A stretch of 64,000 bases of DNA. It comes from Styela clava (lineage: Eukaryota; Chordata; Ascidiacea; Stolidobranchia; Styelidae). This document shows, in pieces, positions 4,563 through 33,960 of the stretch (position 1 is the first letter of the stretch; the number at the start of each line of letters is the position of its first letter). Location of the stretch: the NCBI RefSeq assembly GCF_964204865.1, contig NC_135258.1, forward strand, positions 8,671,001 to 8,735,000, read 5' to 3'. Under the pieces are notes generated by a model. That model searched no databases, was not told the origin of the DNA, and saw only the letters and a list, made by a program, of their open reading frames with translations. The position numbers and the translations under genes were made by a program.

Positions 4563-4881
4563 TTGTTTTATCCTTTCAGTCAGTTGCAGTTCAGTAAGTT
4601 TGTTGCTTATGAGTAGTTTTGTGTAGAGTAGGTTGAGCTTGATCGCTACGTGAAATCAAGAGGTAATCCTTCAAATATTCTATAATTAATACAGCCACTA
4701 ATGATAGGTGATAAAAGCGTTCAAAAGTGCCGTATATGCCGTAAAAATCGTTTCACTTCATTAATTATTTTAATAGTAGCTATGTTAGGGGAGATTCTTG
4801 GTTATATATATGGAATGGAGTAGCGAGTAGATAACGATATGTGTATTTCAATGGTTTTTAACCACTTATTGTTAATAGGCC

Positions 4882-5066
4882 GCTCCAGAAGTGTGTGTAC
4901 CATGGAGGTAACTACTAATTTTGTTCGCCTACCTTAATTCAAGTTGTGTAATGGGACTGAAACTTGGCTAACACATACGGTCCCCGCACTTGTAAAATAA
5001 CTAAAAAAGGAAAATCGGTATAAAATTATAGCCTAACCATAACCTGGTACACACACTACGGGAGTA
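4882..5066. repeat. Diverged copy of the palindromic repeat family
   Basis: The two ends are inverted (ctccagaagtgtgtgtacc near 4884 and ggtacacacactacgggag near 5043) and include the family's cctaaccataacctggtac block. This copy is longer and more diverged than those at 47315 and 58082. The rest of the spacer 4204-5912 shows no gene. Confidence 0.55.
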
Positions 5067-5912
5067 CAGTTAATAGTGCGTGTTATTTGCCTGAAACAAA
5101 ACCGGATTTTATTTTCCTCCATATTTTCATGCAACGTTTTATGCAAAAAAGTTGATGCATATTACCACCCATGCTCAAGTGTCGATCGCCTTTGTTTTAT
5201 CGTTTTTAGTTAGTGGGAAATTTGGTGTCAGCACATATATATATTTGCGTTACGGGTTTAAGTGTATTTCGGTATCTGTTATTTGGATCAATTCGATTGC
5301 GTAACTTTACAATACTGTATATATACTAATAATTGACATCACAGTCTTTGTGCGCTTGTTTGCCTTTGAAGGACTGAAACCTGTCAGTTGGGGTTTGCTC
5401 CTAACTGGAACCTAACATCTAACATACCGATCTCACACTCCTTGAGGGAGCAACTAGAGTGGTGTTGTTCTTTCGATTTGTCATTGTCTAACCAAATTCC
5501 ATGTTCTTAACCAGCACATGTGTTTTAACATGTTTGCGGTTTATATTTTGCATATCTAATAAAACTGTAAAAAAATTTGCAGTGAGTGAAGACAAGAAAT
5601 ACGAAATAGAATATGCAATAAAATAGAATACATAGAAAGCATATATATATACCACTTTTATCAAGTGCCATTATTTGGGCGCGAAAAAACCACACGAAAA
5701 TAATGTCGGTCGTTAAGTAGTTAGACCAATTTGATTCAGAACTACTGTTAAGTTGCAAATATATGCCAACTATAACATAAATCGACAGAGTAAACGAAAT
5801 AATGCTACTACAGTTCTATCATACGTTCCTAGCGCGAAATAGCTGTCTAATATGGGCATGTTAACGTCACGTAGATGATGTTGTTTCGGTGACCACACTT
5901 TTAATGTCTTCT

Positions 5913-8900: not shown

Positions 8901-9933
8901 TATATCGGTTACACAGATATTGGCAGAAGGCAGTTACAACGCTCCATTCCACGCATCATGTCTCGTTACTGCTGTTCCCATTCGCAGGTGCATCAATTAA
9001 CCAGAAGAGGGCGCGGAATGTCTTTTTGGGGGAATAAGAAAACTAGTTTATGCTCCCCCTCCCCAAACAAAATGCAGCTTGGAAAACAAAATTTGTTACA
9101 TAACATAATAAAATACATAATAAAAGAGTCACTTTAATGCGGTTGAAAGCCGATCGAAAAAGTATGATTCCCTCCCTAAATGTGGAATTCCCTTGGAAAC
9201 TTTTCCTTCAAAATCGTCGAAAGATTTGCTGTATCATAATAAACGTTTTTCGGTAGTTAATATGCATGCGAATCCGAACAACAAAATTCCAACCAACGGG
9301 AAAAACACGGGAAAGATGCAACAGCAAGTATCTCACAGCAAGTTGGTGCATACATTGTTCATTTATATACATTCTTATTTTCAAATATAATAAAATGTTG
9401 ACCTATTCACTAAAATGGTTCGCCATGCCTGTCCCGGGATAACGATAATTTGATACGAAATCTTTGTCAAAATGGCGCAAACATATCTGATTTATCGACA
9501 TTTTGATGGATTATTATTGACTATATTTCACAAATTAACATTTTAGAATATTGGTATTAGAGGCCACATCAATTTCGGGAATCAGTTTTAGAGATGACCA
9601 TGACAAAAACATCTATAAAGGCCAGAGGAGACACGACGACGGAAGTCTGGTATGAAATGTAAACGAAGATCCCTGGTTATTACGCAATTTATTGTCAATG
9701 TTCCAACTTTGTGTCACTCACTGTTCATTATATATCTAACTATAAAATTAAACTTCAGACTCACCGACAAGAAAACCCGACCCCACAGCTAACGAAGTCA
9801 CAAGTGATGCCTGGCTAGTAGTTGCATCCAACTCCTGTTCATAATGAACAAGGAATACACCAAGTGATCTCATAGGTCCGATAGTTAATGCGTAAATGCA
9901 AAACCCAGCGCTTATGGTGAGAATCGCACTCAT
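5913..9933 (-). CDS. SLC16/monocarboxylate-transporter-like MFS permease, copy A
   Basis: Read on the minus strand, exons are 9933-9765, 8213-8070, 7409-6793 and 6197-5913, joining in phases 1, 1 and 0 into 404 residues. Exon 1 holds TM1 and the loop with GPMRSLGVF. Exon 2 has GPFASILTNRLGFRQTIILG. Exon 3 carries several membrane helices and RPISGYVTTL. Exon 4 has TPPLIGIIVDLTGSYD. This order and these motifs match SLC16-type 12-helix plasma-membrane transporters of monocarboxylates and related solutes; the substrate cannot be read. The start is the ATG conserved in all three exon-1 copies, just inside a GW...V-like region, so an upstream N-terminal exon or a trans-spliced leader is possible. 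In this copy an in-frame TGA lies upstream of that ATG. Exon lengths 1 to 3 are identical to copy B. The last exon is 30 nt shorter than in B. Confidence 0.8.
6640..6720 (+). repeat. tRNA-like SINE fragment with a box B motif
   Basis: The stretch ending in gcaggttcgaatcagag contains a good RNA polymerase III box B and resembles the box B part of the SINE at 38587-38918. It lies in the last intron of transporter A. No complete tRNA cloverleaf was found. Confidence 0.4.
7853..8056. repeat. Inverted pair of palindromic-family repeats
   Basis: A block at 7858-7912 (atggcggacaccgg ... gtgtaccaggttagag) is the reverse complement of 7980-8050 (aacctggtacacatac ... gtccgccatcttggttcgc). The pair therefore forms a large imperfect hairpin in the intron between exons 2 and 3 of transporter A. 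Confidence 0.65.
8214..9764. other. First intron of transporter A, no recognised content
   Basis: The 1.55-kb intron has only short open frames. On the minus strand, 9230-9340 has one open stretch with a hydrophobic run (FPVFFPLVGILLFGFACIL) that looks membrane-like but lacks a clear exon structure. Confidence 0.35.
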
Positions 9934-10212
9934 GATGACGACTTGCTTACACAACCGCCTGTTGAAGCGACCAACTCAAAATGATTGTCGTGGCAACACA
10001 GATAAATTTATAAACCCAGCAACAGAAATGTGCGATTTCTACTCGCGCGATAGGCTGGAAATATATTTTTTCGGATATGTGACGTATGGAGAAATTACGA
10101 GGTATATTGTGACAGTATGTGCTGTGCAATAAAACTCACAATGAAAATACAAATTATGGATCAGATACTACTTTCACAGGGACGACCAACCCTGGTCAGG
10201 ACATGCAATGAG

Positions 10213-10903
10213 TAGGGCTGAAAATTTTAGGGAAAACACTTTGACCGTTAACCGGGTAAAATTAACCGGTTAACCGCCGCGTGACGTTTGACGTAATAAT
10301 TATAATTTCAGCTTGTTACGTCACAATGGTTATAAAGCAATTTCACGTGTTCCTATCCCGGTATCGCTCAAAATTATTCACGAATCGAGATAGTTTCATG
10401 ATGCCTATGCCGCAGAAAATAGGCAGCGTGGTTCGGGCATGTGGAAATATTTTAGAAAACCCGATTCCGTTGTTAAACGTCATTTATGTGACAAATTTTG
10501 AGTGTTCGATGTGCAAATTCTACTTCGAGATATATATAATAAAGAAAAACGGCATCAACTGCACACCCATTGTATGACATTGAATATCCGATTTTGCAAT
10601 GAAATCGTGAACAATATATTTCGAAATCGACCGACTGATTCGGATTCGTCATTGTAAATTTTCATTATCAGCAACCTTGGTGCTTCCATTATTTTTCACA
10701 TTTATTGATTCCTTACCCACACAGTTAGTAATATTTTTTTGAATCAAACGCCGCGAAAGATAAATTTGCGATGACGTAATCATATTTGACGAAATTGTAC
10801 GGTATAAAGATGATTGGTACCATTGATGTCAGTTAACGGTTAAAATAAATCATAACCGTTAACCATATGAAATCGGTTAACCGGTTAACCATTCCCAGCC
10901 CTA
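10213..10903. mobile_element. hAT-type nonautonomous element with perfect 8-bp target duplication
   Basis: The 691-bp element starts tagggctga and ends cagccctag-like (cattcccagcccta). Subterminal ggttaaccggttaacc motifs are present in inverted orientation at both ends. The 8-bp sequence gcaatgag flanks it perfectly (10205-10212 and 10904-10911), which is the hallmark of hAT insertion. No transposase is encoded; the open frame at 10281-10577 shows no similarity I recognise. Confidence 0.8.
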
Positions 10904-11200
10904 GCAATGAGACTTGTACACTATTTAACAGTTAACAGGTATACTATACTGCCAGTTCAGGGCCAATGAAAGCACGTCCGCAAGCGTTTTTTCGGCAAAG
11001 TTAGGAAAACATGCAACAGCATTCATACATAACGAATTCGATTGGCGAAGAGGGCACAATTTTATATCGTATCACGAAGATTGTATTCACATTCCTTTCA
11101 TTTACGTTAAAAGTAATTGGAGATGCGTCTAAAGATACTGGTATTGCTTAGCATGAGACTAAGTACATGCCACAATGATATATTATATAAGAGTATAGAC

Positions 11201-12382
11201 CAGGGGTATCAAACACATGGGGTTTCGAGGGCCGTATTGCATTTTGGGAATTGTGCAAAGGGCCGCAAACAGTTTTTGATATATTTCGATAATGTATACT
11301 TGAAGCATATTTTTAGATAAGTGTAGTTTGTAACACATATTGTGAGGTTAAATAAACAGTCAAATAAAGCTTTGTTATTTTTATAAATTCCGAATGCCAT
11401 TTGCATATTAATTGCTCGCATTTCACTATTATTGCAATTTATTGTATTTATTACAAAAAATCATATAAATATTTTTATGTACAACTATCCAAAACATTTC
11501 TGAACAAAGTTTTGATAAGGAAAGAATAACACATACACTAAAAATGACTTAATCTAAATATATATACAGACCAAAAATACTACAGAATTAACCCAATGTT
11601 GTACATATGTCCTAACGTTTGGCATCTCTTTTGTGCCATCAGCCTACTAATATCAGGTTGAAATGATTTTACAGTACCAACTCTAATAAACGAGGTCACA
11701 TGATCATCGGTTAATTTGGATCGTTGAAAATGTTTGATAAATTTCAATAATGCAAAAATATTACATTTATCGTTTCATGTATAGATCAGTAAACAAACAA
11801 ATGACTGACTTCTCGAACTCGACATTTCTCGCCACATTTGGGACATTTCCTACCATTACGTGACATAGGGCTTGATATTGATTTTTAGTAACTAGGTAGT
11901 TGTATAATCATGATAATATACAAACACATATGATAATATACGAACACATAAAACATTTCTGTTTGAAGTAAATCTTTAAATTTGTCATACTGACTGCTGA
12001 GCTTATTCTGATAAGGTCTACTTATATTGTATTCTTTCATTATAATGATGGAAATATGACAAATTAAACAACGAGATTTGCTTTAGAATTTTGAGAAATA
12101 TTGTAACTCCCGTTTTTTTTCGAAATACCCTCTTCTTCATGTACTTTGCGTTTCATTTAATCCCTGAAGTTTTTTTTATTTCACATATTCTTTTGCTAGT
12201 TTGAGGTGTATCCAGAATTGGGTCAAAAGGAAAACAAAAAAATTTTAATTTTTCAAAATTACTTTCAGTAAATTGTCGTTTCCTGTGTGATAACCAATTT
12301 TACTTTAAAAGGTTTGAAAAATGTATTACATTTAGATAAAAAAAAAACTCTGTTCATGCGGCCCGCGAGTTTGACACCCCTG
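11201..12382. mobile_element. hAT-type nonautonomous element
   Basis: The left end reads caggggtatcaaacacatgg and the right end gcgagtttgacacccctg, which are imperfect inverted repeats. The sequence gtatagac occurs at 11193-11200 and again at 12385-12392, two bases beyond the expected end, so a slightly offset 8-bp target duplication is likely. About 1.18 kb, with no transposase reading frame. Confidence 0.75.
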
Positions 12383-12412
12383 TTGTATAGACTAAGTATG
12401 AGTTACGCCCAT

Positions 12413-12857
12413 GAGTTTTGGGCGTAATAGCCGCAACAGAAGATAGTATATCGTCTCAATCTCAACGACAAATAAGCACTTCACTTCTTCTGCAATTATA
12501 TGGCAACGCTACAGTAGTTAAAATTGTAAATTTTTCCCGAGCAATATGATTGATTGAACATGTTGTCGATCTGCATATCCAGTACTCATTCGATTTCGTG
12601 TATGACCTCATTACCGATTAGTCGATCGCGGTCGAAAACAGGTTGTCCACCCCAGATATAGAGTATAGATAGACTGTCATAGACATAGAGAATAACACAA
12701 AGTGAGCTTTGGGCGATACTAGACGCAACAGACGGTAGTGAATCGACTCAACGTCAAATTCAACGCTTCACTGCTACAGCAATTACATGGCAACACTAAA
12801 GTAGTCGAATTGGCAAATTTGTTCCCGAGCAATATTATGATTGATTGAACATGTTGT
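12413..12857. repeat. Diverged direct duplication surrounding a hAT terminus
   Basis: Positions 12413-12566 and 12704-12857 are diverged direct copies. Both run from gag(t/c)ttttgggcg to ttgattgaacatgttgt. Between them, 12569-12653 carries the right end of the hAT family seen at 600-1850 (gcggtcgaaaacaggttg). The arrangement could be a duplicated internal part of an older element. Confidence 0.55.
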
Positions 12858-13034
12858 GGATTTTTCAAGATTGTTGGTTGCTCAAGCTTTACTTTATAAA
12901 CTTGTTTTTTTCATTGCTAATTCTGAATACAAAAAGTTAGCTATTGCATACTTGGACGATTCTTAGAGAATTCGCCGCATAGCAAAAATCGCCTTATTCA
13001 AAAAAGATTCGTTATTTAAGAGCATACCCTAACC

Positions 13035-13497
13035 TAGCGGTCGGCAACCTACGGCCTACGGAGTGATATAATCCGGCCCGCGACGCCTCATTGAATTATA
13101 GTAACAAAACAGCTGTTTTGATGATTACCGGTATATTCTTTAGGTAACAGAATTTATTATGGGACACGTGTAGACTAAATTACATTATAATCTAACAAGT
13201 ATAAAATTTGCAATTATTCGTTTAATGGGCCTATAATTTAATTATAATCAGACAAATGGCAACAAAATGCAGAAAAGTTGTGCAAAGGGTTCAATGGCAC
13301 CAAAAATATTCAAATAGAATATTATGAGATGCAATGAGCAAAAAATCTAAATTCTATTCGAGAGATGTATCACTGCTTAATTTTTATTATAAAACGTATT
13401 ATCCGTTCGGTTTCCAATTTTCTAAAATATGTGCGGCCCGCCAATGAATTAACTCTTAATTTTGGCCCGCGAGCAACCGAAGGTTGCCTAACTCTAT
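13035..13497. mobile_element. Short hAT-type element with cggcccgc subterminal motifs
   Basis: The left end (gcggtcggcaacctacggcc) and right end (aaggttgcctaactct) are degraded inverted repeats of the common CAGGGGTCGGCAACC type. Internal ccggcccgcgacg and ggcccgcgagcaacc are typical of such elements. I found no clean target duplication. Confidence 0.55.
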
Positions 13498-13843
13498 AAA
13501 CATAACTGTTTTAATCACAAATACTTGTTTTACAGCAAATTGCTCTTTTCCAATGCGGCGAATTTTCCGGACACGTACTTGGACACCACCAATACTAAAA
13601 CAGTCATGGTTTCTACAGGAAGCGACCATAGGAGGGTTTGTACTTTTCTTATTTATTTACACACAAAATCTGATTCTAGAAAATACTAAATCAACCTGGA
13701 ACGCACCATACACTGCATTATGCGCTAACAATGATCAGTTATAGTTGCTCGTAGTTTGCATGAGAAAAACTAATATATGCATATATATATTATAACGATT
13801 GCATTCCGGCATATCCTACTACTTTAATAAAATTCTGACTTAC

Positions 13844-14012
13844 CACCAAGAAAATATGCCCCAAACGCCAACGAATTCACAAGAGATGCCTGTCCTGCTG
13901 TTGCACCCAACTCTTTTTCATATTGAACAAAGAATATACCAAGCGACTTCATTGGACCAACTGTCAACGCACTTAGGCTAAATGCACAGCCGACGGTCAA
14001 AATAGCACTCAT
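13844..14012 (-). pseudogene. Orphan third copy of the SLC16-like first exon (copy C)
   Basis: On the minus strand the frame from the conserved ATG at 14012 encodes 56 codons plus one base with GPMKSLGIFF and GATAGQASLVNSL, and ends at a good donor (gtaagtcag). It is exactly 169 nt, the length of exon 1 in genes A and B. The frame is open and extends upstream through GTRLGWLVQLYPCKVV, which resembles the usual GGWGWxV start of SLC16 proteins. No exons 2 to 4 of its own are visible between it and gene A exon 1; that space is occupied by three hAT elements. It is either an alternative first exon for gene A or the remnant of a third tandem gene. Classed as pseudogene only because no partner exons were found. 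Confidence 0.6.
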
Positions 14013-14834
14013 AACTACCTTGCATGGGTACAACTGAACCAGCCAACCAAGTCGAGTGCCAATACGAAATACACGGGAATTGGGTGTATAATCCCGGCAA
14101 CTGAATTTTTGTTTGCTATTTGGTAAGAAGTGCTGTCGCGAATGTCTATATTGGCTCAGTAGCTTAAAATTGTTGCCGATAGGATTGTATTTATTCGCTT
14201 TTCTGAATACAACTCGTTTTTTTTTCTTGCGATTGTATGGTGGTCGGGGCAAGATTGGTCATAATACCCAGGACATATTTGTGATTTGGACAATATCCTC
14301 GATTTGCGGACGCGCTGCAAATAATATCGGAAGAAATGTTAAACAAATCATATTTATTATGAATTTAATAATAGACTTCTCCAAAGGTCTTGCTGTTCAA
14401 TAACGATGGTGGTACAGTTCTGGTTATCGCGTCTTTCCTCACCCCGAAATTCTGTTTTGGCTCAATCTACAACTTGGATGTATTTTTAGTAAGGTGAAAA
14501 ACTGCTGATCGCTGTGAAAGAGTAATGCACAAACTTTATGCCTCGGGACTTGTGTCGATCCGCGGAATAAGCTAAGGCAAACCGTAGGCGTGGAAATCCT
14601 CATGTGCCATGAAAATAACTTGATAAGCTGAAAGAGGGCTTGGATAATGCAGTTGATTTGTTTGCAATCAGACGTAAATTTAGTAAATGTGATTAGATGT
14701 CATTTTTGGGTGAAGAGAAGCTCGAATGTATTCTGAGTTGAAACGTCTTCAACTACCGTGCTTTCCCGAAATTAAGTCTTACATTTTCATTTATCAAAAA
14801 CAAAATTACAAAGTAGAGAATACAAGATTTTCTA

Positions 14835-15175
14835 ATATACAAAATATATAGATATTACGTTTTTATTGAAAATAACCGCAAAAGATAGATTATCAATCAT
14901 TTTAAAACGTGTAAGAGAGATTTCTTGCTATCGATTAGGTAAAAAAAAATTCGCGTTATTGATTGATGGAGACTGGAAAAATTATTTTTCTGTTGCCCAG
15001 TCAGAAAAAATGGATGAGCATATTAAAATTGCACTTGAGAATGTTATATACAAAATATATAGATATTACGTTTTTATTGAAAATAACCGCAAAAGATAGA
15101 TTATCAATCATTTTAAAACGTGTAAGAGAGATTTCTTGCTATCGATTAGGTAAAAAAAAATTCGCGTTATTGATT
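14835..15175. repeat. 130-bp direct repeats flanking a sulfotransferase fragment
   Basis: Positions 14835-14964 and 15046-15175 appear identical over 130 bp, at an offset of 211 bp. The 81 bp between them hold a copied piece of the sulfotransferase gene at 17453. The open frames running through this block are artefacts of the duplication. Confidence 0.85.
14967..15045 (+). pseudogene. 79-bp fragment of the cytosolic sulfotransferase 3' end
   Basis: It matches 18310-18388 over 79 bp with one difference by eye, covering the codons for GDWKNYFSVAQSEKMDEHIK and a few more. No other part of the gene is nearby, so this is a dead fragment. The near-identity indicates a recent copy or gene conversion. 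Confidence 0.85.
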
Positions 15176-16820
15176 AAGTCGTATTTAAGGGGAGTTCTTA
15201 TATTGGAATCATTTTTAAAATTCAGTTTAAGTCTTATTTTCGTAAGATAGCTGTAAAAGAAGGGCGCCAAAGATAGAAAACTTGGTAAAAAGTAAAGATA
15301 TTACCATAAAATTGGCAGAGCCGTCCAGAATGTTTGTTGGTTGTCGCTTGACCATTGATGCTGCATTTCCAAACGAGTACAAATACTCACGCAATAAAAC
15401 TACGATTCAGTATTACAAGATAACTTTAAGAAATTACCAGTTACCCCGAGTTCAGCTTGTGCGCATACTTCCGGAAGTCCTACCAGTTTAATAGGTCGCC
15501 GCACGCCGCCCTGATCTTATCCTATTACTCAAAATACATGGCTTTGTAAAACATCGAAAAATAAATTGTATTACGCGGAAAGTTTATGGCTAGAGCTGTC
15601 ACATGGCAGTGTGAATAGATAAAGTACTTTCGAGAGTACATTCGAAAAAGCAAAACTCGGCACATAAAAGTGTCACAGACAAACAATTTTTTTTAACTTG
15701 CCTGAATTTTAAAACGGGGGAGCTTAATATTTCTGGAACATTGTTATTTTATCAATTATTCGCATATAGATTTGAAGAGAAATAATAATACAAAACAATA
15801 TCAAACGACTTCATATATATGGGCTTTAATTAAGTTCATTAAGCCTACTGAAGTTTGTTCTAAAATTGACATAATTACAATATAATCAATCACAGTGAAA
15901 ACATATCGAATCAATTAAGACATCAATTCCCAAATATATTAAAACATACATTGCGCATTGTATTTTTCGGTTGTGGTTTTGAGAAATAATAATTGTACTC
16001 GAGTCTCTGCATGCGCGTCTCAATTCCCAGTACTATTCAGGCTATACTTAACGGGTTAACATAATTGCGACATTCATTGGAAATATCCTCGCCAGACGTC
16101 AACAAATACGCAGCACTGTGTCTGTGTTTGAAGGCGGGAATATTACGCCATAAACCTTATTGGCATGCAGTAAACGTCGTTGCAGGCAAAAGTTGAAGTA
16201 TAAAAATCCACATCAATCAATATGCAGTCGTTACAACTTCTCCAAAAACGCGCAGTCATTGTTTACAATGCGCGTGAATAGATCGACTATTAGGCGTTTA
16301 GAAGTCAGCCTACTGACTCACATAGAAATCATTAGACCGAAGCTTCTCTTTGACTGGAAAGCCTGAAGCGCGTTGGAAGTGTTATAGCACTGTGTGTTGC
16401 CAATCTACGTTTATTTGTCCTAGTACTAAATCTGCATAATGAATGCGTATGGATATTTAATCGTGGCAGAATCAGTATTTGCCGTTCGTACAATACAATT
16501 TATGAAAAGTCTAGGCAAGACTGAATACATAAGTGTAGATACAAACTTTGACTTTCTGCGGTTGATTTAGAAATTTATACAGGTAACTAATTTTTGAGGC
16601 CCAAAAATAGGAAAATCTTTTTTGTACAAGCATTGGGGTATAAATAAGATATCTCAGCAGACTTCTTGTTTTCAGAAATATTCATGTTTCTGTGTTTAGT
16701 CAGTCAGGTTAGTTAGTTGCAGTAATCAAAGCAGCCTTAGTAACGGGATAGAGTGAGGTCATAATTTCATTCCAATTTTCCTTATTTTAGTTATATTACG
16801 AGTTCGGGGACTAACCAAGT
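15176..16820. other. Intergenic sequence, no gene seen
   Basis: Short open frames at 15282-15491 and 16160-16366 have no recognisable similarity and no supporting context. Confidence 0.35.
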
Positions 16821-16923
16821 GACTCCCGCAGTATTTGCACATGAAATTATGACCTAAACCTAACCTGGTACACATACTACGTTCCGGTGTCCGCCATCTT
16901 GGTTCACATACTTCGGGAGTACT
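16821..16923. repeat. Palindromic-family repeat
   Basis: The ends gactcccgcagtatttgcac and acttcgggagtact are inverted. The interior has aacctggtacacatactacg and gtccgccatcttggttcac, as in the pair at 7853-8056. It lies about 530 bp upstream of the sulfotransferase start codon. Confidence 0.65.
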
Positions 16924-17452
16924 TTTTTTTTGTACTAAATGATGATTTTGAATGTTTAAAACTGTTTTTACGTTCTAACTCGCAAAAATACTCTCAAAAT
17001 AAGCAGTTTCAGTTGTTCAAAAAGGTTACTAATTAATCAAAAATAATTGGGAAATCACTAAGGAATTCGATATTTTAAATTTAGAACACAATGATATTGC
17101 AATTGTCAAATTATTTATTTATCTCATGCCCATATTCCATAATTCTATACACTATCCCAAATGGGTAGAATATCGAGTTCTGTACAACTCTGACGGTATT
17201 TGAAAAAGTAATAGATATCTATTGGTCAGAAAATTTAAAATTAATTATAAATGCAATAAAAAGCGATTTTTTCCAGAACAAATCAGCAACAAGAAATTAG
17301 CAACCCATAGGTCCACTTTGTGTATAATAAACTGTATTTCTCTTTATCAAACAGTTATGAAGCGTGTTAGTTCTTTTGACGATACACAAAGCACTGATTA
17401 GATTCGTTTGATTTATTTTTGTAGCAGATTATTCTGTTTAAAAATAATAAAA

Positions 17453-18415
17453 ATGGAAGAGTTTATACGCTCCCTTCCGGATGATATTAAAAGGAAGGGA
17501 AAGGAAGTCGAAGAATTTCAAAAAACCTTCCAGCCTAAACCTCAAGTATGGAAAAATGTTAGAGGAATACCAAATTTCAATATGGATGCCGCAAAATATG
17601 CTTATGAACATTGGACACCACGTAAAGGAGATGTTTTCGTAGCAAGTTATCCCAAGTGTGGAACAACATGGACCTGCGCGATTGTGAAACAACTTTTGTT
17701 TATCCGAGATCCAAACTACTTGGAGATTATGAATGCAAGAGGCAAGGGTATACTAGGTGCTCAGGTTGCAATAGAAAGCGGCCCACCCGAGGCAAAGTTC
17801 GCCATTGCGGATGCTTTACCGTGCTCTAGAATATATTTTACACATCTACCTTCGGAGCTCATCAATGTTGAGAAAATTAAATCAAGCGATGCTAAAGTTA
17901 TCTATGTTTACCGAAATCCAAAAGACGCGTTGGTGTCGTTTTTTAATTTTAGTCAAAATATTCCCTGTGCCCCAGAACTGAGTAATCTGAAGACTGATGA
18001 CTTCAATAAATACCTTGAGCAAATGTTGCAGGGCGAGCAATGGACTGGTGTTCCTGCTGGACAATGGTATCCATACCATATCAAAAGTTGGATGCAATAT
18101 AAAGATGAAAATTTTATAAAATTCATTGCATATGAAGAACTGAAAAAAGACTTTAAAGTCATTGTTCGTGATATTGCTGAATTTCTCGGCCTGCAAAGAA
18201 CAGATGCTGAAATATCTGAAATTGAAAAACGTTGCTCGTTTAAAGTAATGCAAGATGCTGCGACCGGCAGTGATTTGGAAAAGATCAAATTTTTCCGAAA
18301 GGGTGGTGTTGGAGACTGGAAAAATTATTTTTCTGTTGCCCAGTCAGAAAAAATGGATGAGCATATTAAAATTGCACTTGAAAATGTTGACATCCAATTC
18401 CAGTACGAGATATAG
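17453..18415 (+). CDS. Cytosolic sulfotransferase (SULT family), single exon
   Basis: This enzyme would transfer sulfate from PAPS to a small hydroxylated or amine substrate in the cytosol. The 320-residue frame, a little longer than the usual 290-300, shows the PSB loop YPKCGTTW at residues 66-73, the catalytic-histidine strand YFTHLPSEL, the 3'-phosphate-binding strand KVIYVYRNPKDALVSFF, and the C-terminal RKGGVGDWKNYFSV signature. I chose the Met of MEEFIRSLPDDIK; the longer frame from 17408 starts in AT-rich sequence containing a pyrimidine-rich acceptor (tttatttttgtag at 17412-17424), which suggests a 5' UTR intron or a spliced leader site just upstream. The coding region is uninterrupted, which is unusual for animal SULT genes and may point to a retrocopy. 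AATAAA lies at 18543. It sits between two transporter genes of opposite orientation. Confidence 0.92.
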   Translation: MEEFIRSLPDDIKRKGKEVEEFQKTFQPKPQVWKNVRGIPNFNMDAAKYAYEHWTPRKGDVFVASYPKCGTTWTCAIVKQLLFIRDPNYLEIMNARGKGILGAQVAIESGPPEAKFAIADALPCSRIYFTHLPSELINVEKIKSSDAKVIYVYRNPKDALVSFFNFSQNIPCAPELSNLKTDDFNKYLEQMLQGEQWTGVPAGQWYPYHIKSWMQYKDENFIKFIAYEELKKDFKVIVRDIAEFLGLQRTDAEISEIEKRCSFKVMQDAATGSDLEKIKFFRKGGVGDWKNYFSVAQSEKMDEHIKIALENVDIQFQYEI

Positions 18416-18542
18416 GTTGAATTTTAATATTCATATCAGAAATACTGCAACTCTCTGCCTATCGTAGCACAATTTAATGTCTTGATCTATCGTATTAATT
18501 ATGTTTGCGTAATTGAGTCTGATTTTTATTAAATACAAATCA

Positions 18543-18548
18543 AATAAA
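18543..18548 (+). terminator. Candidate polyadenylation signal AATAAA of the sulfotransferase
   Basis: Canonical hexamer 128 bp after the stop codon, in the first suitable position. Confidence 0.5.
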
Positions 18549-19737
18549 AAACCGGTTTGTAGCATAGAAAATGTGGCAAAGCAAAGTTAATATATATATT
18601 GAAAAGTTTAGTCGTATGATATAAATTAAGATGGCCGTTGTGATCTATATCAAACCCCGAGCAATCTTACTTCCACTAGTTTTTTTGACTTTTGACAACT
18701 TGCTTACAGTTCATGATTAAACTCTTGTACTGTTTACCGACTGCCAGTTGCCAACAAAATGAAACCGACCAGCGGTCGATCGGTTCAGTCAGCGGTATGA
18801 ATAATATAAATTATATACAATTAGTTTATCTTCTCCGGAGTTGGATGCAAGTCCTATTGCTCGGGTATACCAAACTTTTCGTTCGGCCCCAGTATAATCT
18901 CGAAACTCCGGCCCTGCGGCTAAAAGTCAGTTTTAGTGGATTTTAACAGCGGTTCGCATAGTCAAAAGACGCGCCGAGGAATAAGACGTGAAAGTTCACT
19001 GTCTAACGATTAACTAACGCAATTTTGAGAACTAAAGTAGAAATAATCGGGCAATAATTTAACTTGGGTGTTTGCTAATATAAGCTATTGTGTTTTTAAT
19101 TTATGCAACACAAGTGTGAATAACATATTAAATTCAACGTCAACATGGAAACTGTCCTCAATGAATCGCCCAAAATTATTTTTCAGTCCGAAGTCAAGTC
19201 TCAATTTTCGGATTGCCGAGGCAGTTTTAAAGTTGAGTAATTTTGTATATATATACGTCTGGAGTCTCATTAAGTCTTCGAATTTATTGAACGCTATGCA
19301 TTCATCATAGACACAAATCAAATCTGCGTTTGAAAAATAATAACAATATATATTACCCATCATCAAAAAACATCAACAAGAGTGGCATATTTCAATTTAT
19401 GAAAACTCTATCTTCCAATAATTACAAATGTAGTATAATTTTCCAAAAATACATTCAAATTGAAAAATATATTGGAAACCGAGTTGAGATTGCCTTACAT
19501 TTTATATAATATAATTATGCGACTACCATCACTAAAGCCTATCATCCGATATGTTTTTTTTCTCTTGGTGAATTCTACACCATTGAGCCAACTCTATGAA
19601 CACATTTGGATATTAACATGAACAGAATAAATTTTATGTTTTCACAGAATACAATTACATATTTTCATCATTATTGGGCGTCAATGGCCCTCTTTGTCGT
19701 ATGAGGGTGGTATTTAAATCGCTGTACTACAAACATT
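18549..19737. other. Spacer between sulfotransferase and transporter B
   Basis: No gene seen. The stretch 18855-18925 (ggtataccaaacttttcg and ctccggccctgcggc) resembles a worn hAT terminus but has no partner. Confidence 0.35.
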
Positions 19738-19743
19738 TTTATT
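19738..19743 (-). terminator. Candidate polyadenylation signal of transporter B
   Basis: TTTATT on the plus strand gives AATAAA on the minus strand, 57 bp downstream of the stop codon of transporter B. Confidence 0.5.
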
Positions 19744-19799
19744 TTATGGAGTAGCAACCTTTTCAATGTCGTTTCCTGATTTTTGGAAAACGTTTGTAT

Positions 19800-22700
19800 T
19801 CACAGTTTGTATTCTGCAGTTTCATCCACATTAATGGATTTCGTCTTTCGAGCGGCTTCCTTCTCCCGCCTCAGTATGATTATCTGTACCATAGATACCA
19901 AAATAGCTGATATGACAGACATCATCGCACTTGCGTAAAACGGCGCATCATATGACCCAGTTGAATCCACAATGCGTCCAATCAGTGGAGGGGTGGCAGC
20001 TGAAAAAGTTCCCACTGCGAACGCTCTGAGTCCCAACGAACTAACGAGTTTGTCTGTTCCGAATAAATCTGAGAGAATAGTAATCGAAAGGGCGCCTCGC
20101 AATCCAATGCATATCTGTAATGTAAGGCGTGAAAGTGTTTTAGTTATGCTAAACTCGAGCACATATAGAAAACCATTGCCAGTTATTGTAAATCCGGCCG
20201 GCAATTAGTAGCATAATTAACAGGACACTCTAGCTAGAGCAGAGGTAGGCACGTTTTTTAAACAAAAGGCCAAAAATTTTGTGTACTTAGACTGGCGGGC
20301 CATGAAAGTGTGACGTGAAAAGTTACATTTTATGAACACCATTTTCAGTACTACGAAGCAAAGGTGGAAAACAATAAGTCTTGGCCAAAACTAAATTTAA
20401 TCGCAATCGTCAACAAATTTCTTGAGTTATTTCAGCTAAAACATCAAAATTTGATTTCAGTTTGGTTGTGGCAGCATCAGGCGGGCCAAATTGAATTACC
20501 CAATGAACCGGATTTGGCCCGCGGGCCGTGCTTTGCCCATGTCTGCTCTTGAGTCTAGAACCGTTGTTTTTCGATCCAATTTCGAATCGTAAATGCGGGG
20601 ACTTAAGTTAAAAAGTATAAGTTTCAGAAGAGCCCTCAAGCTACTTGTCAGCCCTCGGCTGCACAATCAGCTATTTTGTGAATCCGATTTGGGAATGACA
20701 TTTAGTGCAACCAATACCAAGGCTGAGGAAACCTAAACAGCTGTAAGCAATAACAAAAAATATGAAAATATACTCACGGCATATGCGACTGTAACAGCTA
20801 CAATAGCGTAAATGCTTTGAGTAAATGGAAATATAATCACAACAAGGGCTTGTATGCAAGCTACGCCACAGAAGTAGTATGTCCTTCGTATCGGTATAGG
20901 ACCTATATTCGTCAACGTGGTTATATAGCCAGAAATAGGTCGCAAAGTCAAATCCACAATTGATATTACTGAAGATAAAGACGCTGCAATGTAGTTACCA
21001 ACATCTCGATCCTGAGCGAATCGAACTAAATACACAGTGATTGCAACCATTGCCGCCATGTCACAACCGGCAGCCACGGCATATGCAGGGAAAGTTATAG
21101 ATTTGAGTAGACTCAAGTCGATCAGCCTTCGTTTTGCAGGTGCAATTTGTTTGTTCATTTTCGTGGATATCATGAGTAGGCAACTTGGTATTACATTCAA
21201 AATAACACCGCCGATTAAAAGAAAAGCTCCTCTCCAACCATAGACGTCGATCCACAGTTGAACTAAAGGCGATAGAGGTATTGCGGTTAAAGCACTCCCC
21301 ATTGTCACAATGTTATTAAAGAATGATCGCTTCTCTTTGTAACGTATACCGATTAGAGCTATAGTCGGTACATTGACAAGACCAAATCCAACACCTGTAA
21401 AAAGGTAAACGTATATTTTAACAAAATAAACAAAGATGTGAAATGTACCCTGAGGCCAGATCAATTTAACGCTCACTCTAATCCTAATTTAGATGCAAAC
21501 GGATAAAATGCCATCTTTTCGAATTGCGTTCTAAACATGATATAGTGAAAAATTTAATGTCAAAATGGGTAATTTTAGTTATTAATACCGAACTTCGGGA
21601 CATCAGAAGTAAGAAGTAGTATGTGTCACATTACTCTTGTTACATGTTTATTAGTTACAACGAATTAACATGATTTATAATTGGTATAATATAACAGGTA
21701 AACCGTCAACCTTTTTCATGCCAGGAGAGTTGTTTTGATTTAGTGGCCGTATGGTCCTTCCGACCTCCTAATTCCGTTGTTACTCGATTGTTTTCTTTTA
21801 CTTATTGAGTGCTATTACTTGTGTTTTTGGGACCTCCAGAAGTATGTGCACCAAGATGGAGCACAACATGAACATAGTATGTGTACCAGGTAAGGATTCA
21901 GGTTGTGCGCCATTTTGGTGCACATATTCCGGGATCGCCGTTTTTTGTTTGATTTGTTGGCTAATGACTGGATGATGAATAAACTTCTATCAATCTATCT
22001 CCAGAAAAACATATCGCCCGTCATTTTCGCCGTAACAGCGTCAGCAGCTAGCCCCAATTGTAATTTAGCAAAATATCGCCTGATATAATACAATAACGTG
22101 TTTGTGCAATCGACGGCGACTGGAATGAATGTAATACTGGCCAATGTAAACTCCGGATATCACATTACATAGTTGACCTAGAAACTATATTATTACATAT
22201 ATACGCGAATAAATGACATATAAGGGAGAGAGTATATATATAAGAAATACCTGTCATAATTCCAATGGTTGCATGTACGACTGCAATGTGCTGAGAGAAT
22301 GAACACCCTATGGAACCAGCGGATGCCAAAAGTGTACCGAGTATTATTGTTTGTCTGAATCCAAACCGATTTGCCAAAATGGTTGCAAAGGGCCCTTAAA
22401 AACAAACAATAACAGGCCTGGTATGATCATAGTAAAAAAACTTGGAAGGCGATAAAATAGCTGTAACTCAACTAAATAAAAGAGTTATTCCACTCTAAAG
22501 TAAGGTTGTTAAAATGGTCGATAAGTATACGTAGAACGGCATTATAAATTTCTACTCATGTTTGTTCAGAGTATTCTCGGAAAGATATTGTGCACGTGTC
22601 TATAGCTTCATAACTATTATTGAACTTCTCAGTCATTGATTTATAATTATGTGCACACAAGGGGCCATGCTAAGGTTCTATACCAGCGTTTCCCAACCTT

Positions 22701-24216
22701 TTCTGGTCGCGGACTATTTTCTCATCGGCGAAAACCTTTGCGGACTCAAAGTGAGTTTATTGTAATCGTACTCAAAATTCGTTGCAATTACGGGTTCGTT
22801 AAAAGAGCCGACTTTTTTAGAATATAATTGCATTTCTGTCGCACAATATTCAATTCATGACAACAACCAAAATTTAAAATGGCTTTATATATTAATTTAA
22901 TTGTGTTCGTGGTGAGTCGCGGTTGCGTCGACTTACGTCAAGATGAAAGCATTATTTCCTCAAAATGCCACGGCAATCTGCGAACATAATAATGTGAGAA
23001 TATATTGCTCGATTAAATTTAGTTTTGAAACATATTTATTGCGAACTTGCGAGTTCGTGATCACCGTTAGAAAAATCCTACTATCTGCTATAAATTTCCA
23101 GAAAGTACAACTTGATTTAGTACTCATTAAAAATATATTTGAAATATATTGGCTAATCGAAAAAACATCTTCATCGCCTTGCTTTATTATTATTAATTAA
23201 ATTGTGATCATTGTAACCTGCGGTTGTGTTGGCGAAATAAAAGCAATGCTACACAGAAAATATCATAACAATCTGTGCGTGGTAAAGTGCCCGATTATAT
23301 TTTGTTTTGATTCGTATTTTTGAGAATTCGACAAATCTGAGCTGTTCGTACAACAATTACTGCGCTCCAGTACTGTTTGTACCAATGTCTAAATGTGGAG
23401 CCCAACCGTTAAGATTACACTCATCACCTTAAACCGAACACACCACCCGGTGCTGCAGGACAAATAAGTAATCGATGTCCCAATTAATATTATATATGTT
23501 CAGACTTTGTACATCGACAAGACAGGGTTAAAATTGTTTTTCGCTTGGTAATCGACTCACACTTGTTGACGCAGTGACATGGAAGTGTAAACAGAATTTG
23601 ATGGATCGCTTTCGATGAGCTCCTCCAAGATACCATATCTCGTTGTCATAAAATGTCAATCACTTTATGATATATTGGTATTTTGTTCAGACTGGGTATG
23701 TGAATAAACTTGCTTTTTATGTTTTATGTAAATTCTAACATAAATCCTAACTTGGCTGATAGTTAAATTTCGCAAAAACGTCTGCCGTCCGCAGTGAATT
23801 TCTGGCTCGTTGTGGACTCATTCGAACGCTCCGCGGACTCACTTGAGACCGCGGACTCGGGTCGGGAAACACTGTTCTATACCTTTCTCAGTGGATTCAA
23901 AATCATGTACTGTTATCAATTAGCACGACAATAAAAACAACAACGAAATGAGCCTTTTGCGCGGTCATGAGATACTACTAAAAGTGCGCCCCTGAGCTGA
24001 ATACGGTTGTGCGACACACACAACATAATATACTTGATTCCACTTACCACTGAGAAAGAATGCTCCATAAAGCAACGAAGTCACGAGTGATGCCTGCCCA
24101 GCACTTGCACCCAACTCTCTTTCATATTGAATAAAGAATACACCTAGCGACTTCATAGGACCAACCGATAGCGCATTCACGCAAAATGCGGCCCCAACCG
24201 TTAAGATTACACTCAT
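19800..24216 (-). CDS. SLC16/monocarboxylate-transporter-like MFS permease, copy B
   Basis: Minus-strand exons are 24216-24048, 22394-22251, 21394-20778 and 20114-19800, in phases 1, 1 and 0, giving 414 residues. The protein follows the SLC16 pattern: exon 1 with GPMKSLGVFFIQYERELGA, exon 2 with GPFATILANRFGFRQTIILG, exon 3 with RPISGYITTL and several helices, and exon 4 with TPPLIGRIVDSTGSYDAPFY and a basic C-terminal tail (LRREKEAARKTK). It is a tandem paralogue of copy A, with the first three exons of identical length. The start is the conserved ATG; an N-terminal extension through GWCVRFKV is open upstream, so the true first exon may lie further out. Intron 1 contains a hAT element whose interior was copied from this gene's own 5' region. 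PRCC begins divergently 865 bp away. Confidence 0.85.
20240..20545. mobile_element. Short hAT-like element in the last intron of transporter B
   Basis: The ends cagaggtaggcac and gtgctttgcccatgtctg are inverted with mismatches, and the interior has gactggcgggcc and ttggcccgcgggcc. Flanking octamers (agctagag and ctcttgag) match at five of eight positions, consistent with an old target duplication. Confidence 0.55.
21831..21939. repeat. Palindromic-family repeat in intron 2 of transporter B
   Basis: The left arm gacctccagaagtatgtgc and right arm gtgcacatattccgggat are inverted, with aagatggagcacaacatgaa and ttcaggttgtgcgccatttt inside. It belongs to the same subfamily as 47315 and 58082, more diverged. 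Confidence 0.65.
22684..23874. mobile_element. hAT-type element with a captured piece of transporter B
   Basis: The termini cagcgtttcccaacc and ggtcgggaaacactg are inverted repeats. The octamer ttctatac flanks the element perfectly (22676-22683 and 23875-23882), a hAT-type 8-bp duplication. Most of the body matches the related copy ending at 33960, but 23401-23700 does not: it is a direct copy of 24193-24492. The open frame 22943-23200 is inside the element body and has no recognised product. Confidence 0.9.
23401..23700. repeat. 300-bp direct repeat, copy inside the hAT element
   Basis: Near-identical to 24193-24492 at a constant offset of 792 bp, with only a few substitutions seen by eye (for example ggtgctgc against ggtgatgc). 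It includes the first 24 coding nt of transporter B exon 1 and about 276 bp upstream of the conserved ATG. Confidence 0.9.
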
Positions 24217-24492
24217 CACCTTAAACCGAACACACCACCCGGTGATGCAGGACAAATAAGTAATCGATGTCCCAATTAATATTATATATGTTCAGACTTT
24301 GTACATCGACAAGACAGGGTTAAAATTGTTTTTCGCTTGGTTATCGACTCACACTTGTTGACGCAGTGACATGGAAATGTAAACAGAATTTGATGGATCG
24401 CTTTCGATGAGCTCTTCCAAGCTACCATATCTCATTGTCATAAAATGTCAATCACTTTATGATATATTGGTATTTTGTTCAGACTGGGTATG
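24193..24492. repeat. 300-bp direct repeat, source copy at transporter B 5' end
   Basis: This is the likely original of 23401-23700, since it is contiguous with the coding exon ending at 24048. It spans the conserved start codon and sequence upstream of it. Confidence 0.85.
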
Positions 24493-24612
24493 GGGGTAAA
24501 TTGGCGTCTTTATTTCATCGAATACGTTTGAAAAAAAACACATTTTTTTTACTTTTTAACAAAATAATAAAAAAACAGCAACTTCGGTGATGGACCATGG
24601 ATGTGATACTTG

Positions 24613-24620
24613 TGACGTCA
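24613..24620. promoter_or_regulatory. CRE palindrome TGACGTCA in the divergent transporter B / PRCC interval
   Basis: A perfect 8-bp CREB/ATF-type site about 460 bp upstream of the PRCC start and about 400 bp upstream of the transporter B start. Family knowledge gives the binding specificity; use here is inference. Confidence 0.4.
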
Positions 24621-25080
24621 TCTCATAGATAAATTTTAGCAACTTTATCTTGCAATCAGTAGAGGTGCCATGTTCAGTTTATCCAGGTTTATCATAGTAC
24701 ACCTTCTCGAAAAAGAAATGTCGAATATGGGTAGCATTTGCGCATGAATTTGTGTTCCGTATGCAGCTGTTGTTTATGTTATGAATAATCGTTCTCTGAA
24801 TTCGGAACTGAAATCATTGCAAAATTATTGCCTTTCACATGTGAGCAATTTTTCGTGGATCTGGTTCCATTTTGCCCGAATTTTCATATTTTTTAAGTGA
24901 CTATACGAAAGTTACGCTGTCTTCGAAGCACTTGCGTCGTGTTTTCTGAAAGTATTGCCGGTTAATTTTGAGCTCCGTAAATCGTTTTCCATTCTGAATA
25001 TTTTGCCCTCGAAGGCATTTCATAGTCCAGTTCTATGGCGCTTTTAGAATGTTATTATTAAAACTACTAATCGCAGAATA

Positions 25081-26817
25081 ATGTCGCTCGTAGGGTATGA
25101 TGTTAGTAGCGGCTCAGAAAGCGAAAACGACGATAATGAGGTTTGTTGATACTTTTTTTATTTTTTTTTACTTATTGTACAAGGCATGGCTTATACCAGT
25201 ATACGGTACATTGTCTGAGTGTGTAATAAATTCTGAACTTGGCTAGGCCATGACAATGTCAGAATAGCTCCAGTTTTTTTCAAAATCAGCACTTCTTCAC
25301 TAACATACCACATAATTCTTGTTCTAATTGTTATTGTTCAAATTAAAAACCTATAGGGCCTATCTCTTCTTCTTGTCTTATTTATAATTGCAAGATGATG
25401 AAAATGAAACTCAAAGCATTTATGACGGTAGGATAGTGCACAACTTTCCATTTAGCAGACAAGTGTAGGCTCGTCTGCCAGAATGCACATTGTCATATTT
25501 ATCCCAGGGGAGATGAAAGTCAATTTAATCTTTCGATGAACCTTGGCCTCTTGTGCAGACAATTTGCCAATCATTGTCCCAACTGTTCTTAGTTTTTATG
25601 ACACTCTTTGCCTGGCTTAAGTTCTGATTGGTGTTGGGCAGAATTTCAATGATATATTGATGGATTAATATACTCATGCAGGTAAATTTGTGTAACTGAT
25701 TAAGCATAACAGTTATTTGTTTTCATTGCAGACACCTGTGCCAGCAATATCGACTCCATCATCAGCAGATAGCCATACCAGTTCAACATTGAAGCTATCT
25801 AGCATTTTACCAAAGCCCATAGGCAAAGAAGGTCCAACTTCATTATTTAGCAGTACTTCTGTATCATCAAAAAAGCGATCCATCAGGATCAGTGCTCCAG
25901 AAATACCGGTTTTAGACTCTGATGATTCTGACAATGAATCAGAGATTGGTCCACCGAAAAAGAAACTCCAACCGAGCAAAACTAGATCAGGACTTTTTGC
26001 AAAACTGCCTCCTCCTGTAAATGCTATTTCTACAGGAAAACATTCAAATACATCTTTTGTGCCATATGTATTCTCTAAGCCGAAAAAGGATATTCCACCC
26101 CCCAAAAAACTGACAACCACACCTACACAAAATGACGACAACAAGACAGGTAGCAGTACTACGTCAAGTACAGTCCCCTCAATTGCAGAGATTCGGCGAC
26201 GGAGCTCTCAAGCTGCTGCTAAACTCCTTTCTACAAAGGTTGCTGCTAAAACATCATCGGATGAAAATGACAGTGATGATATTGCACCAGTTGGATTTTT
26301 TAGTTATGTTGAAAAATTGCCAGAAAGTGAGATACCCGAAATTGATTTACCTGAGATAGATACTGAACCTGAATTATCTGAGGCACCAGAATACAATTAT
26401 AATCACGCCAATTATAATCACGCCGCACAAGACAACATTCCTTACCACACACAGTTTGATGAACAAGAACCTATGCCAGAACAAAGCGATATGGCAGCTG
26501 GTGATAGTACTGATGAATTTTTGCGGATTCAAGGCAAAAGAAATCGCAAAGAGGAAATAAATTTTATAGACATTCGTGCAGATGATGCTCTCGAGGGAAA
26601 CAAAGAACTATTGCTCAAACAAATATCTGAAGAGAAAAATATGAATCGGACTTCTCACAGTAAAAAGAAAACTAATGCGCCAGGGGGTATTCTTAAACGA
26701 AAACATCAGCTCTCATATTTAGTACATCAAGCTAAGGCAAGAGAAATTGAGTTGAAGAATTCCTGGGCACAAAATAGATTAACAAAGCAGCAAACACAGT
26801 CCAAGTATGGGTTCTAA
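25081..26817 (+). CDS. PRCC: PRCC homologue (proline-rich nuclear splicing-associated protein)
   Basis: Exons 25081-25140 and 25732-26817 join in phase 0 into 381 residues. The N-terminus MSLVGYDVSSGSESE matches the MSLVxYxSSDESE start of PRCC proteins. The middle is low-complexity, rich in Ser, Pro and acidic residues, with a basic PPKKKLQPSK stretch. The C-terminus has the highly conserved PRCC block: RIQGKRNRKEEINFIDI, then KRKHQLSYLVHQAKAREIEL, then TKQQTQSKYGF. The human protein is nuclear, associates with splicing factors and the mitotic checkpoint protein MAD2B, and is fused to TFE3 in papillary renal carcinoma. Intron 1 carries a short SINE-tail-like fragment at about 25492-25525. The gene is convergent with NFATC2IP. 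Confidence 0.93.
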
Positions 26818-30859: not shown

Positions 30860-32999
30860 CTTGACTCAATTAAATCTATATATCTGTAAGTACCAATATC
30901 AATTCATTTAGTAAATTGAAGAAACAGTGAAAATCAAAGTAAAACTAATAAATACAAAATTTTGAGATCATTTTAGGAACAATAGGAACGCTTTACCAAT
31001 TTCAAAAAGGGATCAATATATGGCCCAGAATGTAAATTCATAGATATTGTACTTAATAAGGCAGAAAATTTGTTATGTCGCTTTAGAAAGTATTCAGTAT
31101 TTAAACAAATCTTATTTTTTGTTCGAGTGCCATATGTCAATTAAACAAAATGCCAATCCAGTATATGGAATATTACATATTCGTAACGTACGTTACATTA
31201 TAACTAATTCCAAATATTATATTCGTTTGAAAAATATGCTTTGAAAAAAAATAGTGGGAAACGTCATGAACGTATATCACTTTTGTGGTAGAAAATGTCC
31301 AGATGAAGACATTGAAACAGCAATGTATGAATATCCGCAAAAAGCTTTGTTGCATTCTTGAATCCAACCAACATAACCCAAGATTGGAATTAAAACCTAA
31401 AACAAACTTTATAGCAGGTAACAAAATTAAGACAAGAGGACATGCTCAATACTGCAATACCAATCATTCATAGTGCAGTAGTGACTTCATTACATGAAGC
31501 TATCTTTGATACTGCAGTACTGATGGTAAAATAGTATTCAATAACTTCATTTATTGCTGTTTGATTAAATGTTAAAGACATTTGATATGGTACGTGGTGT
31601 GGGATGGACGTGTCGACCCCTATGAGATGGCTCCAAAGATAACAACTTGGTCGTAAAATTTGAAACAAATGGGATACCTGGATACAAAAGTTTGAAATGC
31701 TGAAATGGTTAACACTCCGGTGGACAGCGAAACCATAGAATATTATAGACTACATTGCCATTTCTGTACGTGCTGGCTAGCTTATTAATTGTGTTTAGTG
31801 TTCACCTTATTTATTGTTCATCCAAAATTAACAGTGGTACTTCGGGTGTCGCTGCTCGATAACCATTTTCCTTCCCCAGTAGAACTGTGTACTATTTTCT
31901 TGTAATTTGTGCCTGTGCTATATATTTATTTTTTACTGGTTGGAAAAAAATAAACTTGATTGATTGATCTTTCATTGGAATTTTACATACTTCCCACAGT
32001 TCCAAGAACTACTGAACTATGGAAGAACACTGAACTACTTGCACCTGCATTACATCACTCATGTCTGATTTTATTTCTGATACAGAATTTCACAAAAGAC
32101 ATTTAACTGTAAAATTAATTTATTACTTTTGTTGCCATTGTTTACATCTTATACAGGTACAGAGGTACAATGAGCTTTTTCGCAATTCAATTGCTCACTT
32201 ACTCAAAATTATTTGTTTGGTTTTATATGTGTCTGGTGTAAACAAGCCGCAAATCACAGTCCAATCATGTCCATTTTGACGCAAATGGTACCTATTTAAT
32301 TGGGACCACCGTGTGTTTACGTTTCACAAGTTCACTGTTCAAGTTTTTGTCTTTGTTATTTCGAATTTGAATAGCCTATATGTTTGTGTGTTGATTGTGG
32401 GTGAACTGGCGTAGGCTATGTATTATCTTTTATGCCTTCATTATTTACGTTTTGTGTATGCTTTTTTGCAGGAGAATCAAAATATATTTATACTTTCACG
32501 GCAGTATCAGAATACACAATGCAATAAGCAGAATATGAGTGAGTTACTTTATTTCTATTTTGTATTCAAAAATAAAACCATCACGAGCTTGCTCGTTTGT
32601 TTACAACCACGTGCAAAAATTCATCCTACAGATTTCTTATTGGCTACTTCCGTACGGTCATACGCTACGGTGTGTCACCAAACGTGACTTGTCTCTATTT
32701 AGTGGCATTGGCTGATTACAGGATTGGGGTTTGCCAATCTTCAGATGTGCAAATTTTACCCTGTTACGGCGCTTTTATTCCACTTACGGCTACACGAGAA
32801 TGAAATTTTCATCGACGTCCACGAAAATGATTGATTGATTGAAAAATATAGCAAAAATAAAACAATAATCGTTTACTATTCCTATTAATCCTACTTGCGC
32901 CCAAAATGCAAACAATCAACGATGAAAAAAAGTTACTCGTGCGCCCTCAAGAGGATACGACAATATTACAAAGCATTACTTCTTTGAAAATGCCTGATT
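30860..32999. other. Intergenic sequence upstream of NFATC2IP
   Basis: No recognisable gene on either strand. Short open frames at 31047, 31285, 32061 and 32418 lack similarity or splice context. Confidence 0.4.
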
Positions 33000-33960
33000 A
33001 TATTTAATTTTGATACCTATTTTTTGCGATCTTGCGAATTTGTTATCGCCGTTAGAAAATCCTACTATCTGCTATAAATTTCCAGAAAGTACTTGATTTA
33101 GTACTTAATAAAAATATATTTAGAGTATATTAGTAAATAAAAAATACATATTCATCGCCTTGCTTTATTATTAATTCAATTGTAATCATTTTAATCTGCG
33201 GTTGTGTTGACGAAATAAAACCAATAATACTCAGAAAATATCATGACAATCCGTGGACACAAAAATGCGTGGTAAAGTGCCAGCTTATATTTTGTTTTGA
33301 TTCGTATTTTTGTGATTTCAACAAATCTGAGCTGTTCGTACAACACTTACGGTGCTACAGTACTGTACGTACCAATGTGGAGGCAGTAAAGCAAAGAATC
33401 CACGGTAGCACCCGAGATTTTGCGATTTGGAATGTCTAAAAAAGCTACTTTAATCGGTCACGGACCATCATGAAACAAAATTTATGGTGTTCATCGTTTT
33501 GTTTTTAGTATTGCCGCTTTTCAATTTAGAAAATTTGGGTTGCCACCTACCAGAATTTTTTTATTCCACGTTGTTCAAACTCGCGAGAAGCACTACTTAG
33601 GTATCTATCGACGCGTGTGCCGACTCGTGCTTTCGTCGGAAATCCGCAAGTGAGTAGTGAATTTCAATCATTTGATTTAGCGACGCGCAAGTGACCTGTC
33701 GCGTCATCTGTTACCAAATTTTCGAATAGTAAATTGCTATTTTAATAGTTGAATATATGCTCAGCCCTACTCAATAACCAGTAACTATTGACTCGATTAG
33801 TGTTATGAGAATAAACTTGCTTTTTATGTTTTATCTAAATTCTAACGTAAATCGTACCTTGGCTGATAGTTAAGTTTCGCAAATACGTAAGCGGCCCGCA
33901 GTGAATTTCTGGTTCGTTGCGGACTCATTTGAGACCGCGGACACGGGTTGGGAAACACTG
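33000..33960. mobile_element. Second copy of the hAT family found in transporter B, 5' truncated
   Basis: The sequence from about 33000 to the terminus ggttgggaaacactg at 33960 parallels 22985-23874. Where the first copy carries captured transporter B sequence, this copy has unrelated element sequence (about 33380-33790). The left terminus is not visible. Confidence 0.75.

Follow-up and report, generated by a model that had tools for sequence, protein, structure and literature searches.

Introduction

Capture of host DNA by transposons of the hAT superfamily has been described in both animals and plants. In 100 animal genomes Tan et al. (2021; PMC8277862) report 370 Pack-TIRs (TIR, terminal inverted repeat), 208 of them hAT; the source is no more than 15 kb away in 160 (56.9%) of 281 unique cases, and in most of these less than 5 kb away; microhomology is found at one or both breakpoints in 190 (67.6%), and the median capture is 224 bp. 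These authors argue that most single-copy cases arise without transposition, and their support for capture after insertion is an orthologous element lacking the capture in an outgroup. Here we describe a window of 64,000 nucleotides from the tunicate Styela clava (contig NC_135258.1, positions 8,671,001 to 8,735,000; all coordinates below are those of the window) in which a hAT-like element, lying in intron 1 of a major facilitator superfamily (MFS) transporter gene, contains 300 bp copied from the start region of that same gene.

The locus is like single-copy Pack-TIRs (PMC8277862) in being hAT-like, present in one copy and less than 5 kb from its source, with 300 bp captured between internal breakpoints, and also in having microhomology at one breakpoint and in taking part of an exon together with its 5′ flank. 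A frog case in the same study is a 291-bp piece of 5′ untranslated region in a hAT element, although that one is multicopy. The present case differs in that the source is the gene whose intron houses the element, 318 bp away; this is not by itself new, since it follows from the bias towards capture in cis. Plant Pack-hAT/Pack-TYPE elements (PMC8903248) likewise have hAT ends around captured gene DNA, and set against them only one copy is listed here. Maize Ds elements with filler DNA (PMC3260210) belong to the same superfamily and also have an interior that is partly filler, matched to gene fragments in a few instances; only a few fillers were traced to a source there, whereas here the source and both junctions are exact. 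In rice, too, foreign segments are brought in by repair linked to DNA transposons (PMC4423477), but these are of 1-123 bp at sites that the element has vacated, whereas here the element remains. The kind of capture is thus already known and this case is a well-resolved member, a readable example in which donor, recipient, both junctions and close capture-free relatives are all in hand. It illustrates how an intronic transposon can leave a gene with its start region duplicated, and it fits the published view that single-copy animal captures mostly need no transposition, leaving that picture unchanged.

Results

The element and the captured segment

The element occupies 22684-23874 (1191 bp) and has kept both ends, the left end being CAGCGTTTCCCAACC and the right end, read on the opposite strand, CAGTGTTTCCCGACC. 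The target site duplication (TSD) TTCTATAC stands on either side (22676-22683 and 23875-23882) and is perfect (8/8). According to a published table the hAT superfamily has an 8-bp target site and ends beginning with CA; both are found here, the terminal inverted repeats being short and starting with CA, so that the hAT ends and perfect duplication reported in an earlier note on this stretch hold. In 20 other family copies at least 6/8 TSD positions matched in 13 and fewer than 6/8 in seven, with the ends as first called. The best explanation takes the element to be one member of a non-autonomous, high-copy hAT-like family, inserted in the transporter gene's first intron. On the + strand it consists of a left part (22684-23400) whose final GGAG is common to its closest relatives, the captured segment (23401-23700) and a right part (23701-23874).

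The captured segment is an ungapped direct repeat of 24193-24492, with 294 of 300 positions identical. A repeat finder recovered the same direct repeat independently (98%) and BLAST extended it to 23391-23700 / 24184-24492 (97.1%, one gap, E ~1e-149 to 1e-150), in agreement with the near-identical, same-orientation copy claimed earlier; the match is not due to chance. The six differences are all substitutions (23453, 23550, 23585, 23623, 23630 and 23642). The source begins 318 bp beyond the right end of the element (put at about 320 bp in the earlier note) and has the identical orientation. The captured DNA had been described as the start of exon 1 with its upstream flank, and so it is, with the share of exon 1 limited to the first eight codons and the flank amounting to 276 bp upstream of the start codon (the gene being on the − strand). 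This exon start is conserved in a paralogue (MSVILTVG at the source, MSAILTVG at 13824-14258). Because the source holds a conserved coding start, the host is the donor and the element the recipient; copying from element to host was rejected on the same ground.

Copy number of the captured segment

When 23391-23700 was searched against the host assembly (376.6 Mb in 379 contigs), with E values up to 10, two places were listed, the element and the gene. This search skips very common words, and a 90-bp paralogous match of 82% at 9787-9876 detected by local BLAST was not listed by it; that a near-identical 300-bp copy escaped it is unlikely. The definition of a single-copy Pack-TIR (PMC8277862) asks for an interior of 100-5000 bp with at least 90% identity to a unique best parent and a length ratio of 80-120%, and the interior here is 300 bp, matches at 294/300 and has one other listed place in the genome (by BLAST instead of BLAT). 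It also asks that both flanks be terminal parts of one TIR element, which they are when judged against relatives without a family consensus, and that no transposable element lie within 100 bp of the parent. The matches listed for the 881 bp around the source (24020-24900) were itself, the capture and one paralogous exon, in the search that passes over very common words and left out the paralogous match at 9787-9876.

The earlier note had proposed looking for the segment in other copies of the family. It is absent from all 20 other copies that were fetched with their flanks, beyond chance-like matches of 10-23 bases; these 20 are the best of 39 other element places listed and thus a sample of the closest copies. 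Taken with the two places listed in the genome, this led us to reject the idea of an element sequence that had landed twice. None of the 20 contained a near-identical (at least 90%) copy of its own flank, and repeat matches to the flank at 75-83% occurred in two of them (L021 and L022).

Relatives of the element

The genome search with the element gave 2290 first-look candidates, which suggests that the hAT-like family is large, and 40 of these were scored. The closest copies among the 40 were L002/L012 on contig 5 and L003/L013 on contig 13. L012 and L013 are 92% and 90% identical to element positions 1-717 and 95% and 94% identical to positions 1014-1191, and in place of the host DNA of the focal copy they carry 134 and 138 bp of element sequence between the breakpoints. 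Their full lengths are 1022 and 1027 bp and the breakpoints, both internal, fall at about 0.70 and 0.83 along them; by this measure the focal copy has lost about 135 bp of interior, or about 13% of the element. In a tree of 22 rows the focal copy groups with L012 and L013 at 100/100, the bootstrap not having settled. Over aligned columns, divergence from the focal copy is 12-15% in 18 of the 20 fetched copies and 6-7% in two. Apart from L012 and L013, the fetched copies have 217 to 2783 bp between two BLAST pieces, and all 18 contain stretches matching the 425-bp interior of a further family copy in the window.

This further copy (32996-33960, + strand) had been taken in the earlier note to show what the interior should be, a view that does not survive comparison with the nearest scored relatives. 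Its homology to the element is confined to 32996-33378 and 33804-33960, on either side of the 425-bp interior (33379-33803), it has no full match to the first 327 bp of the element, and 80 of 572 aligned columns differ from the focal copy. As a distant copy whose left part was not found, with 425 bp where the relatives have 134 or 138 bp, it was rejected as a template for the lost interior.

Open frames of at least 80 codons were sought in six of the 20 fetched copies. The two longest were both in L024, where a family relative of 3654 bp (4591-8244 of that locus) with an 8/8 TSD has long open frames of 379 and 217 codons, counted from stop to stop; these could stem from gene capture or nesting, or belong to an unusual helper gene. 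No hAT transposase was found in these six copies, the two L024 frames being without a Pfam match and a partner element being sought no further.

Junctions and timing

At the left junction (marked by a slash) L012 and L013 read AATGTGGAG/GCAGTG, the focal copy AATGTGGAG/CCCAACCG and the host ATGCGGC/CCCAACCG, and just to the left of it host and element are similar (AAATGCGG, AAATGTGG). At the right junction the host reads GGGTATGGGGG, L012 GTTATGTGAATAAAC and the focal copy GGGTATGTGAATAAAC; the capture ends in TATG (23697-23700), four bases that host and element share. Of 200,000 junctions drawn at random between the host region and L013, 2.2% shared at least 4 bp. Modest microhomology at one junction and none at the other is a frequent outcome of template switching or end joining, but it proves nothing.

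Across 870 aligned columns there are 31 sites at which L012 and L013 agree and the focal copy departs from them; the majority of other copies sides with the relatives at 28 of these sites and with the focal copy at three. The captured segment differs from its source at six of 300 positions, a count that adds up the changes of both lineages. Assigning three of these to the element copy makes the capture younger than the focal branch (Fisher two-sided P = 0.026). These counts suggest, without proving it, that the capture may have taken place after the element split from its relatives.

Origin of the captured segment

We consider it probable that the element, once inserted into intron 1, broke internally and that the segment is the product of templated gap filling there, making this a single-copy Pack-TIR formed in cis. 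An element copy would have inserted into intron 1 of the transporter gene and would later have suffered a double-strand break or a stalled fork. Repair synthesis at the element sequence ending in GGAG would then have switched, with its direction kept, to the host template 792 bp ahead, copied 300 bp from 24193 to 24492 and returned to the element via the common TATG, for a net loss of about 135 bp of element interior and a gain of 300 bp of the host gene's own start region. We infer the break and the order of these steps, and that transposase would not have been needed. In favour of this reading are the perfect TSD, the retention of both ends, the two genome places listed for the segment and its absence from the 20 fetched copies, the 134 and 138 bp found at the same position in the nearest relatives, the 4 bp shared at the right junction, the nearby source in the same orientation and the cis bias and microhomology of the class described by Tan et al. 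(PMC8277862), and also what looks like a second local templated insertion in the window, at which no transposon ends were noticed (see below).

Several observations weigh on the other side. The left junction is blunt, with a strict microhomology of 0 bp, and since two junctions were tested, the 4-bp match at the other is no more than weakly unusual and constitutes weak evidence. If all six differences fell on the element copy the age comparison (6/300 versus 31/870) is not significant (P = 0.25); the two copies lie 792 bp apart, and their similarity could also owe something to gene conversion. The capture-free copies compared here lie at other loci. The interior that was replaced showed no fragile site or hairpin in L012 or L013; single-strand windows of 100 nt are most stable elsewhere in the element (no shuffled control). 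Finally, the genome search can miss short or diverged copies of the captured segment.

The earlier note had read the segment as filler copied from nearby host DNA when gap repair was interrupted after transposase cutting, or else as a local Pack-hAT-type capture. That adjacent host DNA was copied as filler into a hAT-like element is supported; transposase cutting as the specific trigger is not supported. Excision by transposase followed by abortive gap repair from the sister or homologue, with one end copying nearby host DNA before the ends met, is predicted to give an identical product with both ends and the TSD intact, and abortive gap repair has reportedly been studied in maize Ds elements. 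Filler in cis is documented for P-element gap repair (cited in PMC8277862). However, only 134-138 of 1022-1027 bp were lost, all interior, and 717 bp and 174 bp of element would have needed recopying. The divergence of the fetched copies (12-15% in 18 of 20, 6-7% in two) does not show that the family was active when the capture took place, and transposase was not found, though it was hardly sought (six of 20 copies read, two frames compared with Pfam). The exchange of about 13% of the element between internal breakpoints resembles the internal-break, transposition-independent mode that Tan et al. describe (PMC8277862). Cutting by transposase may have occurred but is not indicated, and we regard this route as unlikely. 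It is less probable still that the segment was acquired at a nearby site and carried into intron 1 as cargo when the element moved (FoSTeST type or a local hop). hAT elements do hop locally. Multicopy, transposed Pack-TIRs also exist (PMC8277862), yet here one cargo-bearing element is listed in the genome, its source is 318 bp away and a further local move into the intron beside that source would be required. Least probable of all is an assembly error or haplotype misjoin. The arrangement is that of the assembly and a 2% difference is within the range of heterozygosity of some animals, but the copy is embedded between two element parts with both TSDs present, the copies differ by six substitutions and the genome search listed no second haplotype copy of the locus.

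A second local event

A stretch of 82 bp at 14964-15045 matches 18307-18388, 3.3 kb away, at 97.6%; the latter is the 3′ part of a sulfotransferase frame. The 82-bp copy is flanked by perfect direct repeats of 130 bp (14835-14964 and 15046-15175), and no transposon ends were noticed by eye at 14835-15175. The structure looks like a second local templated insertion, here with a target duplication, and as such may fit a transposon-independent process. Repeat pairs within 15 kb of each other were surveyed in the window and the 20 fetched loci (262,020 bases). Seven pairs had at least 60 bp and at least 94% identity. Three of these were tandem or overlapping and one was inverted; the others were the focal pair and the two pairs of the second event. 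With limits of 100 bp and 90% there were also seven, including two in L023 outside the element.

The host gene and the copied start codon

The transporter gene lies on the − strand. The stretch 20733-21488 matches PF07690 (major facilitator superfamily; E 2.8e-13), that at 19800-20204 scores 31 bits, under the Pfam cut-off of 33.4, and the exon-1 peptide alone matched no Pfam family. According to the gene model, which is based on the sequence and on paralogues in the window, the coding part of exon 1 (169 nt) is predicted at 24048-24216 (start codon at 24216, donor GTAAGT from 24047) and exon 2 at 22251-22394, after the acceptor TTTTTAAG and before GTATTT, continuing exon 1 in frame as GPFATILANRFG. 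The element between these two exons is therefore in the predicted intron 1.

A second start codon and 5′ flank within intron 1 had been proposed in the earlier note. The start codon (at 23424) was indeed copied, along with the 276-bp flank in sense orientation, but the frame that it opens (23389-23424, − strand) is of 11 codons, MSVILTVGLHI*, with its stop at 23389, so that no transporter N terminus can come from the captured start by itself. GT dinucleotides within this frame look, by eye, like weak splice donors. A TATA-like stretch was noticed by eye near 24275-24290 and the two copies are identical there. It is a tentative and rather doubtful suggestion that the gene may, given this stretch, have a second, internal promoter from the captured flank and that the genome may, in view of the second local event, be prone to local templated insertion generally.

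Other features of the window

The gene belongs to a row of related MFS transporter reading frames on the − strand (5913-8334, 13824-14258 and 19800-24291, spanning 5913-24291), among which lies the sulfotransferase reading frame on the + strand (17402-18415, identified by Pfam). A divergent neighbour on the + strand has a PRCC domain (Pfam match inside 25696-26817). Elsewhere in the window there is a tandem pair of about 165 bp (97.6%) at 46786-47110 and an inverted pair of 110 bp (95.5%) at 47315-47423 / 58082-58191, 10.7 kb apart.
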